Assembly (NCBI RefSeq): GCF_000219535.2 | Contig: NZ_CP007806.1 | Location: 1,362,501-1,426,500, forward strand | Source of the DNA: Brevibacillus laterosporus LMG 15441 | GTDB taxonomy: Bacteria; Bacillota; Bacilli; Brevibacillales; Brevibacillaceae | Reading direction: 5' to 3' | Length of the DNA: 64,000 bases | Shown here: positions 39,449 to 49,187 of the stretch, piece by piece | Layout: every line of letters begins with the position of its first letter | How positions within the stretch are numbered: the stretch's first letter is position 1 | The notes under the pieces: generated by a model | The model's input: the letters and a program-made list of their open reading frames with translations, nothing else | The model's database searches: none | Told to the model about the DNA's origin: nothing | Program-made: the position numbers and the translations under genes

Positions 39449-39785
39449 TTGTCAAGTGTCTTCGTGGCGCTTTCGCTACTGTTTAAGGAATTGGTTATGT
39501 TTGTTGCGTATGTAAAAAACAATGCGTTTCCGCAACCGCTGCCCGAGGTAGAAGAAGAGAAATATCTTAAATTAATGGCAACGGGAGACCCCATCGCTCG
39601 AAATAAATTAATTGAGCATAATTTGCGATTGGTGGCGCACATCGTCAAAAAATTCGAAAACACCGGCGAGGACAGCGAGGATTTAATCTCTATTGGTACC
39701 ATCGGACTGATTAAAGCCATTGAGAGTTACCAGGTGAATAAAGGAACGAAGCTTGCTACCTATGCAGCAAGATGTATTGAAAATG
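39449..39785 (+). CDS. sigK: sigK coding piece 1 (N-terminal part of mother-cell sigma factor SigK)
   Basis: The first 112 codons of SigK, the late mother-cell sigma factor of sporulation. It includes the short pro-sequence, then NNAFPQPL, the region 2 stretch [35 protein letters not shown] (core binding) and [12 protein letters not shown] (-10 recognition). I chose TTG 39449 because GGGGAGG lies eight bases upstream; GTG 39440 overlaps that site. Homology to SigK stops at the GAT codon 39785-39787, where element 1 begins; unexcised, the frame runs on to a stop at 39845-39847 with unrelated residues. It corresponds to spoIVCB of B. subtilis but is cut about 29 codons earlier. Confidence 0.93.
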
Positions 39786-40031
39786 ATATTCTAATGTCAT
39801 TAGTCATGCGTTTCCTTTTTGATCAGGCTAAACGTGTTTGTGTGTGAATTGTGCTACTATTGTTGTCAAAAAAAGAAGCAACCGCGCTGAGCAAGATATC
39901 AGCTCCTACGGTTACTTCTTCTTCAAAGGTGGACTCTCCAGTGTGGGAGAGACTATGTATAGTTTGGAAAGCACCCACGGGTGTTTCGTGTATAAAGTTA
40001 GCTATTGCAGTTTGGTGGCATGAAGCAATAA

Positions 40032-40373
40032 TTAGGCCTTTTTAACAAATTGAGATTTTAATTTCATAGCCCCAAAACCATCAATTTTGCAATCAATATC
40101 ATGATCTCCATCAATTAAGCGGATATTTTTTACTTTTGTACCGATCTTAATGACGGAAGAGCTTCCAGTTACTTTAAGGTCTTTGATTACTGTTACAGTA
40201 TCCCCATCGTTTAAGACATTTCCATTTGCATCCTTAATAATTCTTTTATCCTCACTATGTTCAGCTTCTGCTGCTAAAGTCCACTCGTGAGCACATTCAG
40301 GGCAAATAAACAGACTTCCATCCTGATACGTGTATGCTGAATTACACTTTGGGCAATTTGGCAAATCTACCAT
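40032..40373 (-). CDS. PhnA-like zinc-ribbon protein
   Basis: A 113-residue protein of the PhnA/YjdM family: an N-terminal zinc ribbon with CPKC near residue 8 and CPEC near residue 25, then a small beta domain containing [25 protein letters not shown] and [32 protein letters not shown]. Despite the name, most members are not tied to phosphonate use and the role is unknown. GGAGGAAATGAAAGA precedes ATG 40373. It is cargo of element 1, and its family has chromosomal homologues in many bacteria. Confidence 0.85.
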
Positions 40374-40639
40374 TCTTTCATTTCCTCCATTCGTTTCATG
40401 CTAATGAATATATAAGAATAATTTTCAATTTCTGTTTTACAACTTCGAAAAAAAGCAACGAACTCGAAATTCACAAAAATATAGGTAGTTTCTTATATCC
40501 TTATATACTGCCATAGTCTTCTCTTATTGACAACCTTTCCCTTTATGATCCTCATAAAAAAGCAGGTAATACCTGATACAATATCGCTTGTTTTCCATGT
40601 GAATGGGATATAACTATTTTCCTATGTACATGTACCCCT

Positions 40640-40687
40640 GAGGCAAGATAAGAAAGGATACCGCCCGTTTATCAGGGGGACGGTATC
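40640..40687 (-). terminator. Terminator of the Arg/Cys peptide gene
   Basis: Reading the minus strand, GATACCG (40687-40681) pairs with CGGTATC (40663-40657) with further G-C pairs inside; CTTTCTTATCTT follows. It begins 11 bp after the stop codon. Confidence 0.75.
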
Positions 40688-40697
40688 GGAGGAAGAT

Positions 40698-40781
40698 TTA
40701 ACAGAAGAAGCGACGACGACAGCAGCAACGACGACGTCTTCTGAAACAGCAACGACGGCGTCTGCGGAAGCAACAAGACAT
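40698..40781 (-). CDS. 27-residue Arg/Cys-rich protamine-like peptide
   Basis: A very short gene with a perfect ribosome site (AAGGAGGTGGCGTAC before ATG 40781) and its own terminator. The product contains 13 Arg and 8 Cys in 27 residues, arranged as Cys clusters separated by blocks of five, five and three Arg, with four Phe; it starts MSCCFRRRRR. There is no signal peptide. The composition resembles vertebrate protamines, so DNA or polyanion binding with disulfide cross-linking, for example in the spore coat or mother cell, is conceivable but unproven. It lies within sigK element 1. Confidence 0.7.
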   Translation of the reverse strand: MSCCFRRRRRCCFRRRRRCCCRRRFFC

Positions 40782-46390: not shown

Positions 46391-46795
46391 TTAATCGGCT
46401 ACTCTTTCAATCGTAGGTGCAATTGCGATTGGAGGAATTGACAAAGTCCACGCTTTAGCAAATACATTCAACTTTTCACCCAGAACATAATGGTCACCAG
46501 CAGATACAGGGACTCTTAAAATTTTGTTTTGAGAAGCTAATTCCCACCAATTATCTTGATAAGAAAGTGCTTCTTCTTTTGTAGAAGTATTGGCTACAAC
46601 CATGTATATGTCATCAATCGAAATAACGTAGCCAGTGAACGGTTGTTGTTCCTCTTGCTCAACAGCAGAAATAGAGGAATGCTGTAAAGAGGATTGATTT
46701 GAATCCGCAAAAGCAGGTGTTACCCCCATTGTGAATCCAAAGCCTAATGCAAGAGTGGTTACTACCGTTACTAATTTGTTTTTTGAAATTTTCAT
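46391..46795 (-). CDS. Secreted DUF3221-like protein
   Basis: A 134-residue protein with a signal peptide (KNKLVTVVTTLALGFGFTMGVTPAFA) and a small beta domain containing FTGYVISIDDIYMVVA and, near the end, GEKLNVFAKAWTLSIPPIA, which matches the general pattern of DUF3221 (a short OB-like domain often seen in Bacillus lipoproteins). No lipobox is present. ATG 46795 has AAGGAGG ten bases upstream; TTG 46801 is an alternative start. Confidence 0.7.
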   Translation of the reverse strand: MKISKNKLVTVVTTLALGFGFTMGVTPAFADSNQSSLQHSSISAVEQEEQQPFTGYVISIDDIYMVVANTSTKEEALSYQDNWWELASQNKILRVPVSAGDHYVLGEKLNVFAKAWTLSIPPIAIAPTIERVAD

Positions 46796-46801
46796 AATCA
46801 A

Positions 46802-47565
46802 ATATCCTCCTTAAATTTTATCCGTACATAGTAGGGGTTCTATTCCTGTGTCGCAAAACCTTTATATATTCAAATATTTAACAAATTAGTCAAATTTATG
46901 GATGGTAAGGGATATCAGGAAAATTCTAAATTAGATTGCCATGTATAAATAGAAAATCATTCAAAATTATTGAGCATTCGGAAATGGGTGCTGATGTATA
47001 AGGTAAGAAAATTATTCGTTTTTGGGTTAGGATAGTGCCAATTGTAAGGTAAGCAACAGGAGGTTTTCTTCAAGTATTCAATTTAAGAAACTCCTGTTTG
47101 TTGTTTGTTGGATTATTCCTTTAGACACCCCTTATTGTGGTATAAAAATACATTCAGTACATTTGGTTTAATCTTTATGGATAATTCTATTAACTCTTTA
47201 TTCTTTTACTAATAGCTCCATCTGCACAAACCTTATTATCCGTCAATCAATCTCTGTAAAATAAGCCTATCTCATTGAAAATTATCCTTTTTAGCATCCT
47301 TTATAAGGAAGGCCGGTTCTACATGTGATGTAGTAAAACCGGCGATTTTTGCTCGTATGAGCCTGATAGTAAAGCTGTGTGAAGATATCCTCAATATAAG
47401 TAAAAGCTTACATACTTGTATAGAATATAGCGTGAAATTACTCTAGGATGAATAAATCAGATTTTCATTAAACCTGAGTGGTATATAGACCTTACATTTT
47501 TATGGAGAATAAAAAGGAATAAAACAGCCGCTCAGGATTGAGTGGCTGCTTGAAAATGCTTATGA
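46802..47565. other. Non-coding stretch of element 2 with two orphan hairpins
   Basis: No gene is supported in these 760 bp. Two hairpins stand out: AACAGGAG (about 47050) with CTCCTGTT (about 47091), and GCCGGTT (about 47312) with AACCGGC (about 47336) enclosing TACAT/ATGTA, followed by GATTTTT. Near 47520-47553 a third hairpin (CAGCCGCTCA with TGAGTGGCTG) followed by T on the minus strand is the terminator of the collagen-like gene. The first two serve no visible gene and may mark small RNAs or lost genes. Confidence 0.45.
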
Positions 47566-48684
47566 CTATAATAAAGCTCCCGTAAAGGTGATCCCCCCGA
47601 TTACTGTTGCCGAACCGCCACCAACAATATGGGCGGTAATCGAGTACGTAACATTACCGGTTCCAGGGGTTAAATCAACATGACTTATACTTGTGGTACC
47701 CAACGAATTTGCTCCTGTTCTTTGATCATCAGTGCTATAGATGACTGTTGTACCACGCATTATTCGAAATTGGATGATTGGATTACTAGCTCCGTTTTGC
47801 CAACCTATTGCTCCATTTAGCCAGATGCGATTTAATGCGGAACTTCCTGTGATAGTGATTGTTTTTAATGTGGTTGGGGTGCTAGTTAATGCAATGGATG
47901 AGCTACCACTAGTATTGGGATTATTCTCTGAAACTTGGAAATTTGAAAAGCTTCCAGTAGCCCCAGTCGGTCCAGTAGAGCCAGTTGGTCCAGTAGCCCC
48001 AGTTGGTCCAGTAGCCCCAGTCGGTCCAGTAGAGCCGGTCGGCCCGATAGCCCCAGTCGGCCCGATAGCCCCAGTCGGCCCGGTAGCCCCAGTCGGCCCG
48101 GTAGCCCCAGTTGATCCAGTATCGCCAGTCGGTCCAGTATCGCCAGTCGGCCCGGTATCGCCAGTCGGTCCGGTAGCCCCAGTAATCCCCCCACTAGTCT
48201 GTAACAATTCGATGTCATCAAGAATCACATCTGCTGTAGATAGTGCAGGAACCTTACTAATAATAAGTAATGCTTCAATAGCTGTAGCTGGTACAACAGC
48301 GGTTGTTTCATATATTGTAGTCCATATATTAGCTGTATTATCTGGAAGGTGGCCTACGGGAATTGTCAGATTAAGTCCAATACCAACAGGAATGTTTGCT
48401 GCATCTAAATAAATAAGTACAATATTTACCTGCGGGCTTATTAAATTCCCTGATTTTGCAATAGATAAAAACAATTCAAAACTATCTCCAGGTGTTACAG
48501 GTACTGTTTGAAACAATAAGCTATTAGCTGTACCTCCAAATAATAATGCACTAAAAAAACCACTGTGACTCTGTAAATCTGTAATCGCCGCATTTGTAAA
48601 ACTCCATGGCAACAGAGTTCCTGATTCAAAATTACCATTTTCAACTATGTTACTAAAGGGCAAATAAATCACCACTTCCATCAT
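47566..48684 (-). CDS. Collagen-like surface protein with Gly-X-Thr repeats (BclA/NTTRR type)
   Basis: The product has up to 372 residues in three parts: an N-terminal carbohydrate-binding-like domain ([16 protein letters not shown] at the start, [11 protein letters not shown] at the end) of the kind seen in Brevibacillus triple-helix-repeat proteins, 26 collagen-like triplets rich in GPT and GAT, and a C-terminal beta-rich domain of about 130 residues as in exosporium glycoproteins. Threonines in the repeats are likely glycosylation sites. The start is unsure: ATG 48684 or a TTG seven codons later with GTGGTGA upstream. Spore or cell surface location is inferred. Confidence 0.8.
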
Positions 48685-48897
48685 AAGGTTTATTGGTACT
48701 GAAGCATTATATGTTGACTCTCCTATTTAAGAAAGGGCTAGTACCACTAGATAAAAATACAAATTTGAAAATGTGTACAGCTACCCGAAAATAAAAATCG
48801 AATGAATAAGGAAATTCGATAAAAGTAAACATGTCACGCGATGCTCTGCTTATTACAAAGAGGGGCTGATCATATAGATAACCTCAAGGGGTGAATG

Positions 48898-49187
48898 AAA
48901 TTACCTTGATAGATGTTCTGGGCACAGAAACAGATGAGGTAGTAGATGCGGTCCAGCTAAAGCTGGAAAGCAATAAGATTTATCAGCATATTCATATTTT
49001 AGATGAACGTGAGAAAGAGGTCATCATCGGTCGTTTTGGCCTAGATCAAGACAAGGAAAAAACACAGCGGGAAATAGCGCGTGAATTGGGGATTTCTCGC
49101 TCATATGTATCTCGTATTGAAAAAAGAGCATTGATGAAGCTGTTTCACGAGTTTTATCGAACGAAACAGACGCAGGGCGGGAGATGA
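48898..49187 (+). CDS. sigK: sigK coding piece 3 (C-terminal part of SigK)
   Basis: The last 95 codons of SigK plus the completing bases of one more, equivalent to spoIIIC in B. subtilis. It encodes [16 protein letters not shown], then sigma region 4 with [17 protein letters not shown] and the -35-binding helix-turn-helix [28 protein letters not shown]. Unexcised it could start only at a GTG 48891 without a proper ribosome site, and a stop (48879-48881) lies just upstream. Joined with pieces 1 and 2 it completes a 237-residue SigK. Confidence 0.95.

Follow-up and report, generated by a model that had tools for sequence, protein, structure and literature searches.

Two probable skin-type elements divide the sigK gene of Brevibacillus laterosporus LMG 15441 into three pieces

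The rearrangement of a sigK gene interrupted by one element has been a textbook case for decades. The window analysed here, a 64 kb stretch of the Brevibacillus laterosporus LMG 15441 genome (5.15 Mb in three contigs, the stretch itself lying on one of 5.11 Mb), holds a sigK gene in three pieces, separated by two adjacent elements with a recombinase and attachment (att) sites each. It is very probable that these are independent skin-type elements at different attachment sites, and that both are excised in the mother cell before SigK is made. Judged from the sequence, the two elements appear to be independent of one another and both would have to leave to restore SigK, in agreement with the original prediction made for this DNA. 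Similar genes, some of them interrupted at three sites, recur in related lineages. In what follows genomes are referred to by G numbers (G000 is the LMG 15441 genome itself), contigs by C numbers and loci by L numbers.

The three pieces were found by a search of the genome with the SigK profile TIGR02846, and a conserved box lies upstream of the first; all coordinates are those of the window.

39378-39420, plus strand: conserved box upstream of sigK, GTACAGGCAC..TAGGC..GCC.ACATAT, kept in all five aligned genomes of the genus where the flanking sequence is not
39449-39786, plus strand: sigK piece 1, from a TTG start through the N-terminal part and region 2 to ...CIEN-GA (TIGR02846 positions 4-117, E = 3.0e-54)
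42839-42927, plus strand: sigK piece 2, the middle piece, 29 codons, EILM...DKEGNE (TIGR02846 positions 110-144, E = 1.5e-12)
48894-49187, plus strand: sigK piece 3, region 4 to the stop codon (TIGR02846 positions 139-227, E = 6.6e-35; Sigma70_r4)

When the pieces are joined at the short cores shared by the ends of each interruption (GA at site 1, AATGA at site 2), they form a frame of 237 codons with no internal stops, whose product matches the uninterrupted SigK of the congener G001 at 94.9% identity over 235 residues, ungapped. The distances between shared cores are 3054 bp at site 1 and 5971 bp at site 2, 9025 bp in sum. The three-piece structure, coordinates and distances put forward earlier are thus correct (with cores GA and AATGAA), as are the proposed junction reading and codon count. 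Recombination at GA gives Glu-Ile-Leu-Met at site 1, not Asp-Ile-Leu-Met. The product presumably still carries a pro-sequence like that of B. subtilis SigK, and the upstream box includes CATATGGATA, which, from the consensus, is taken to be a sigma-E/K-like -10 element. Loss of the whole 9 kb in a single step, computed as a control, keeps the frame and drops the middle piece, so that SigK is not restored. The original prediction had also allowed for an intact sigK elsewhere in the genome, and none was found with TIGR02846. One other long SigK-like match (C1:3837633-3838265, 261 bits against a cut-off of 298.65) lies beside another sigma factor match and is read as SigE.

The finding of no uninterrupted copy would also fit a gene that has died in this strain, with SigK no longer made. 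That reading is very improbable: the joined frame is open, and the protein of all three pieces is identical across three doubly split species (G000, G002 and G004) while synonymous sites change. Over 235 codons, middle piece included, there are no nonsynonymous changes in any pair, against 37 synonymous changes between G000 and G002, 19 between G000 and G004, and 37 between G002 and G004; in comparisons with G003 and G001 the synonymous sites are saturated. Identity of the protein in the face of these synonymous changes indicates that sigK here is not a decayed gene.

Element 1, at site 1, contains a YjdM-like gene, an open reading frame (ORF) of 65 amino acids (aa) and the recombinase Int1.

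39785-42838: element 1, 3054 bp, with GA common to 39785 and 42839
40032-40373, minus strand: YjdM/PhnA-like cargo gene (TIGR00686, E = 1.3e-50), also present in G002 and G004
41167-41189, plus strand: promoter-like GACAAGC-N7-GCATAACCT ahead of the Skr-like ORF, from a motif count over 41 loci
41209-41406, plus strand: Skr-like ORF, 65 aa, candidate directionality factor of element 1; its start lies 94 nt ahead of that of int1, and the two share 104 nt in different frames
41303-42811, plus strand: Int1, large serine recombinase of 502 aa with Resolvase, Recombinase and Zn_ribbon_recom domains; S9 invariant in 10 homologues
42825-42855: right attachment site attR1, TTGACTGTAAAATGGA/AATTCTGATG, from the att alignment

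By eye, GA is the only dinucleotide common in place to the left and right ends of all 11 insertions aligned at site 1; nine of these insertions have TGTCA at the left end, and 10 have TGAC at the right. The int1 gene is under purifying selection, with a ratio of nonsynonymous to synonymous rates (dN/dS) of 0.07-0.11 among G000, G002 and G004. A relative of the Skr-like ORF (E <= 0.01, match from residue 1-3) precedes the recombinase in 41 loci, and the promoter-like sequence, presumably a SpoIIID-box-like element followed by a sigma-E/K-like -10 (from the consensus), is enriched upstream of it: the strict motif ACAAG-N7-9-CATA is found in 14/41 loci against 57/20500 random windows, and a looser form in 25/41 against 219/20500.

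Besides the recombinase Int2 and a 52-aa ORF, element 2, at site 2, carries three cargo ORFs, of which one is collagen-like.

42923-48893: element 2, 5971 bp, with AATGAA common to 42923 and 48894
42927-42963: inverted repeat just inside the left attachment site attL2 (arms 42927-42942 and 42948-42963), a possible int2 terminator or att arm
42966-44513, minus strand: Int2, large serine recombinase of 515 aa from an ATG at 44513 (ORF open to 44540), with the three domains of large serine recombinases; S11 invariant in six homologues
44643-44670, plus strand: conserved GTCC...CACC-CATATAGATA ahead of the 52-aa ORF, GTCC and CATA being kept in 5/5 aligned site-2 elements
44691-44849, plus strand: 52-aa ORF accompanying Int2, candidate directionality factor of element 2
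45323-46120, plus strand: cargo ORF of 265 aa with no family match above cut-off
46391-46801, minus strand: cargo ORF with a weak DUF3221 match
47566-48684, minus strand: collagen-like cargo gene with an NTTRR-F1 domain (NF033675, E = 9e-58)
48870-48910: right attachment site attR2, GATAACCTCAAGGGGTG-AATGAA-ATTACC, from the att alignment

The core AATGA is common to both ends in six of seven site-2 loci; the seventh, L059, has a one-base variant at the left end, and its right end lies on another contig (L052). Purifying selection is evident here as well, dN/dS among the same three genomes being 0.09-0.12 for int2 and 0.05-0.065 for the 52-aa ORF. Of the 95 Int2-bearing loci, 47 contain a relative of this ORF, including 40 of the 80 that lie on viral contigs (many near-identical), and one occurs at the far end of a further element (L147). 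The collagen-like gene sits within element 2 and would depart with the excised circle; collagen-like genes are often found on spore surfaces.

With a serine recombinase and att-like ends in each insert, and no match to Rfam at gathering scores anywhere in 39000-49800, it is exceedingly improbable that the pieces are joined at the RNA or protein level by an intron, an intein or ribosome bypass, and nothing was found in favour of such joining.

The recombinases link each element to its position in the gene. Int1 and Int2 are only 22% identical over 396 residues, and PHROG integrase family 95 matches both (E = 1.5e-99 and 3e-100); from their position, S9 of Int1 and S11 of Int2 are the putative catalytic serines. 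A third family, Int0, belongs to a third site, site 0, near SigK residue 66. Among the loci collected, excluding re-cut copies of the window and other stretches of the LMG 15441 genome, 185 recombinases matched at 44% identity or more (81 Int1, 95 Int2 and nine Int0). A sigK break lies within 3 kb of 74 of them, and 73 of the 74 occupy the site of their own family: 41 Int1 at site 1, 23 Int2 at site 2 and nine Int0 at site 0. The sole exception is again L059, where the middle piece is isolated and the Int2 gene stands 15 nt from its site-2 end; it is a counting artefact, booked to site 1 because the alignment overshoots the end of that piece. Removal of near-identical recombinases leaves 64 (35 Int1, 21 Int2, seven Int0 and the same exception), of which 43 belong to loci that were collected by their recombinase only, regardless of sigK, and these (27 Int1, 14 Int2, two Int0) include no exceptions. 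None of the other 111 matches is within 3 kb of a sigK break in the stretch examined. The skin element of B. subtilis is taken here to lie at site 1, and Int1 shares 45% identity with a homologue from B. pumilus (L115) that occupies this site.

Relatives of Int1 and Int2 also occur in phage records and viral contigs. Pieces of sigK are present on 16 of 80 Int2 and seven of 30 Int1 viral-contig loci (L171, L174, L176, L184 and L189, for example), which suggests that full-length prophages use these sites in sigK too. Isolated inner pieces turn up in the viral collection as well, on L249 and on L185/L248, where int1, a middle piece and int2 stand in a row. The two elements of the window yielded no capsid, portal or terminase match among the eight proteins scanned with PHROGs or in the family scans. 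Phage tail-fibre families do match the collagen-repeat stretch of 47566-48684, the best at E = 6e-25, and there is a weak match to a single virion structural family, phrog_38766, at E = 0.00011; the repeats alone may account for these matches. Base composition does not distinguish the elements, with G+C between 0.34 and 0.42 inside and outside.

The original prediction knew of no described sigK with two tandem intervening elements. The double interruption is not unique to this genome: among 73 genomes from three families, 19 have two or three occupied sites, and five of these have three. This count is a lower bound because site 0 was probed in few genomes of the first two families. In the family of LMG 15441 (39 genomes, the same 39 being returned by an order-wide search), an isolated middle piece, indicating occupation of sites 1 and 2, is present in G000, G002, G004, G022 and G054, and G013 is split at sites 0 and 1. 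The family of G033 (11 genomes) has isolated middle pieces in G033, G127, G137 and G187. In the Croceifilum family (23 genomes), sigK is split at all three sites in G270 (Croceifilum oryzae), G271 (Shimazuella alba), both Thermoactinomycetaceae, and G273, G278 and G285, at sites 1 and 2 in G272 and G281, and at sites 0 and 2 in G284 and G287. In G277 and G289 the only split seems to be at site 2, in 11 genomes the probe meets no interruption, and G291 gave no sigK piece above threshold.

How these cases are read depends on the assemblies. The pieces are spread over more than one contig in G022, G270, G271, G273, G278 and G287, and in G054, G137 and G187 the evidence is the isolated middle piece alone; in G000, G002, G004, G013, G033, G127, G272, G281, G284 and G285 all pieces lie on one contig. 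Contigs do break within the elements of several relatives, as might be expected had assembly or binning produced the arrangement. Such an artefact is nevertheless extremely unlikely, for the contig in question is 5.11 Mb long and the three pieces follow in the same order in the one-contig genomes G002 and G127 and on single contigs of G004, G033, G272 and G281, which also speaks against the assembly error that had been raised as a possibility with the prediction.

Some related genomes show further irregularities around sigK. In the triple split of G285 (C1, L156), the last sigK piece is inverted (6427-6161, minus strand) with its attachment site intact, so that recombination there would invert rather than excise; the inversion may be real or an assembly error. 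Eight SigK-like stretches lie within about 90 kb of G025 (C1:1542779-1632479), one full-length and the rest partial, most without the N-terminal part. In G018 (C1:2841299), G040 (C1:2026161) and G045 (C15:7350), an intact stretch is accompanied by extra partial pieces at distances of 4 to 21 kb, and these are perhaps remnants of lost elements.

Taken together, the evidence points to two excisions along the following lines. In growing cells and in the forespore, the three pieces of sigK would remain apart. In the mother cell, sigma-E and SpoIIID would probably turn on the Skr-like factor together with Int1, and a CATA-type promoter would turn on the 52-aa factor, enabling excision by Int2. Int1 would recombine attL1 with attR1 at the GA dinucleotide of the Glu codon, and Int2 would recombine attL2 with attR2 within AATGA, each releasing a circle. 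A readable 237-codon sigK would then be present only on a chromosome freed of both elements. The Skr-like ORF is a candidate directionality factor of element 1 by analogy with B. subtilis skr, and the 52-aa ORF is the corresponding candidate of element 2, on the model of C. difficile, whose factor is separate and under mother-cell control.

Several observations weigh against this scheme. Excision, its timing, the cell type and both directionality factors are inferred from assembled sequence. No family model names either small ORF in the family and PHROGs scans. The 52-aa ORF was not found in 48 of the 95 Int2-bearing loci (some of which are short), 27 of the 41 loci with a relative of the Skr-like ORF are without the strict promoter motif, and the alignment of site-2 elements shows no conserved promoter upstream of int2. 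Outside its overlap with int1 the Skr-like ORF is weakly constrained, with four nonsynonymous against three to four synonymous changes to G002 (ratio 0.23-0.32). Finally, Int1 is likened to SpoIVCA through the published description of skin and the B. pumilus homologue, not through the SpoIVCA sequence.

Why a gene should carry two such elements can be read in more than one way. The original prediction proposed a two-key lock on late sporulation, a regulatory role that the pair may have, though the elements may equally be two passengers in a safe place. One tentative and rather doubtful idea is that sigK serves as a three-slot docking gene, accepting up to three elements with different recombinases and control signals, and that multi-step programmed DNA splicing acts as an AND gate, SigK appearing only once every input has acted on one and the same mother-cell chromosome. 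On the other hand, the gene may be a refuge and not a lock: the anatomy and mechanism would be the same, the second element would be a passenger, and elements would accumulate at the three sites with no regulatory gain. This is on balance probable. Related genomes have none, one, two or three elements, a distribution that resembles gain and loss; cargo varies between elements; relatives of Int1 and Int2 reside in phage records and viral contigs; and the LMG 15441 genome also bears an element in prkA. As a gene needed only in a dying cell, sigK would offer elements that excise there a site of little cost. Purifying selection on int1, int2 and the 52-aa ORF might seem to speak for a regulatory role, yet selection on the recombinases is expected of a refuge too, since loss of either would cost SigK. 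The analysis leans toward a refuge as the origin of the arrangement and toward the double requirement as its consequence. The preferred reading of two independent skin-type elements, both excised before SigK is made, is common to the two.

The split prkA gene (PrkA kinase, followed by a DUF444 gene) lies at G000:C1:752559-753435 and from 771811 (L276, L277). The intervening element, of about 18.4 kb, has its own serine recombinase, terminase genes, a GH25 gene and a shared core GATGA. The short prkA frame is found only in the LMG 15441 genome, with 301 aa against 637-740 (18 genomes with a PrkA match, 20 searched), and the available parts of the literature matches listed contain no report of prkA as a split gene. 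Another of the large serine recombinases of this genome, of which only four were found, lies at C1:1617692 (L163) and adjoins a sequence that reads like the C-terminus of an ABC substrate-binding protein and may mark a further split gene.

Where independent elements cut a gene into three or four pieces, the question of regulator or parasite becomes testable. The three recombinase families, each linked with a single short site in this highly conserved gene, should be useful for studies of how such enzymes read their targets. There is a practical side as well: automatic annotation may well fragment a multiply split sigK, so that such genomes can look as if they were without SigK.

The known systems are compared here from the available parts of the papers cited. 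Single insertions in sigK have been described in B. subtilis, C. difficile, C. perfringens, C. tetani, the B. cereus group and Alicyclobacillus (PMC5025042, PMC5553647, PMC10745906, PMC13141910, PMC6957869), several of them at different places in the gene. Element 1 most resembles the skin element of B. subtilis, likewise an insert in sigK with a serine recombinase. The skin directionality factor, Skr, is a 64-aa protein whose gene overlaps spoIVCA by 101 nt in the +1 frame and has a sigma-E and SpoIIID promoter (PMC6957869), much as the 65-aa ORF of element 1 overlaps int1 by 104 nt and follows a SpoIIID-like box. The B. subtilis skin is, however, a single prophage-like element of 48 kb where element 1 has 3.05 kb, and its spoIVCA lies beside the 5' piece and opposite to sigK, whereas int1 lies beside the next piece and along the direction of sigK (PMC10745906).

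For element 2 the nearest parallel, compared by description, is the C. difficile skin, in which a recombinase is accompanied by a small separate factor under mother-cell control, as int2 is by the 52-aa ORF (PMC5025042). That element lies at a different place in sigK from the B. subtilis one, and the C. difficile SigK has no pro-sequence (PMC5025042). There is one element per gene in C. difficile, with the recombinase beside the 3' piece, while int2 stands beside the piece on its 5' side (PMC5025042). The insertion of B. cereus AH820, at sigK nucleotide 423 (codon 141), agrees with site 2, and its recombinase, like Int2, is beside the 5' part; one insertion per strain is described in the B. 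cereus group, against two here (PMC10745906).

Phages and other genes offer looser parallels. Alicyclobacillus phage MMB025 (PV686781) has the closest relative of Int1 in a phage record (47% identity over the whole protein) and is reported to integrate in sigK (PMC13141910); as a 105-kb infectious phage with one insertion, it differs from the elements described here (PMC13141910). In B. cereus ATCC 10987 the gin element, also gene-intervening and described as without phage genes, interrupts gerE; it is one element with three recombinases, in place of two elements with one each in sigK (PMC5595907). Two or more elements in one sigK are not described in the available parts of the literature matches listed, PMC5595907 and PMC10747680 included, subscription papers lying outside that scope. 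As far as these sources show, the one-element kind is known, and the occupation of two or three sites at once by separate recombinase families is new.

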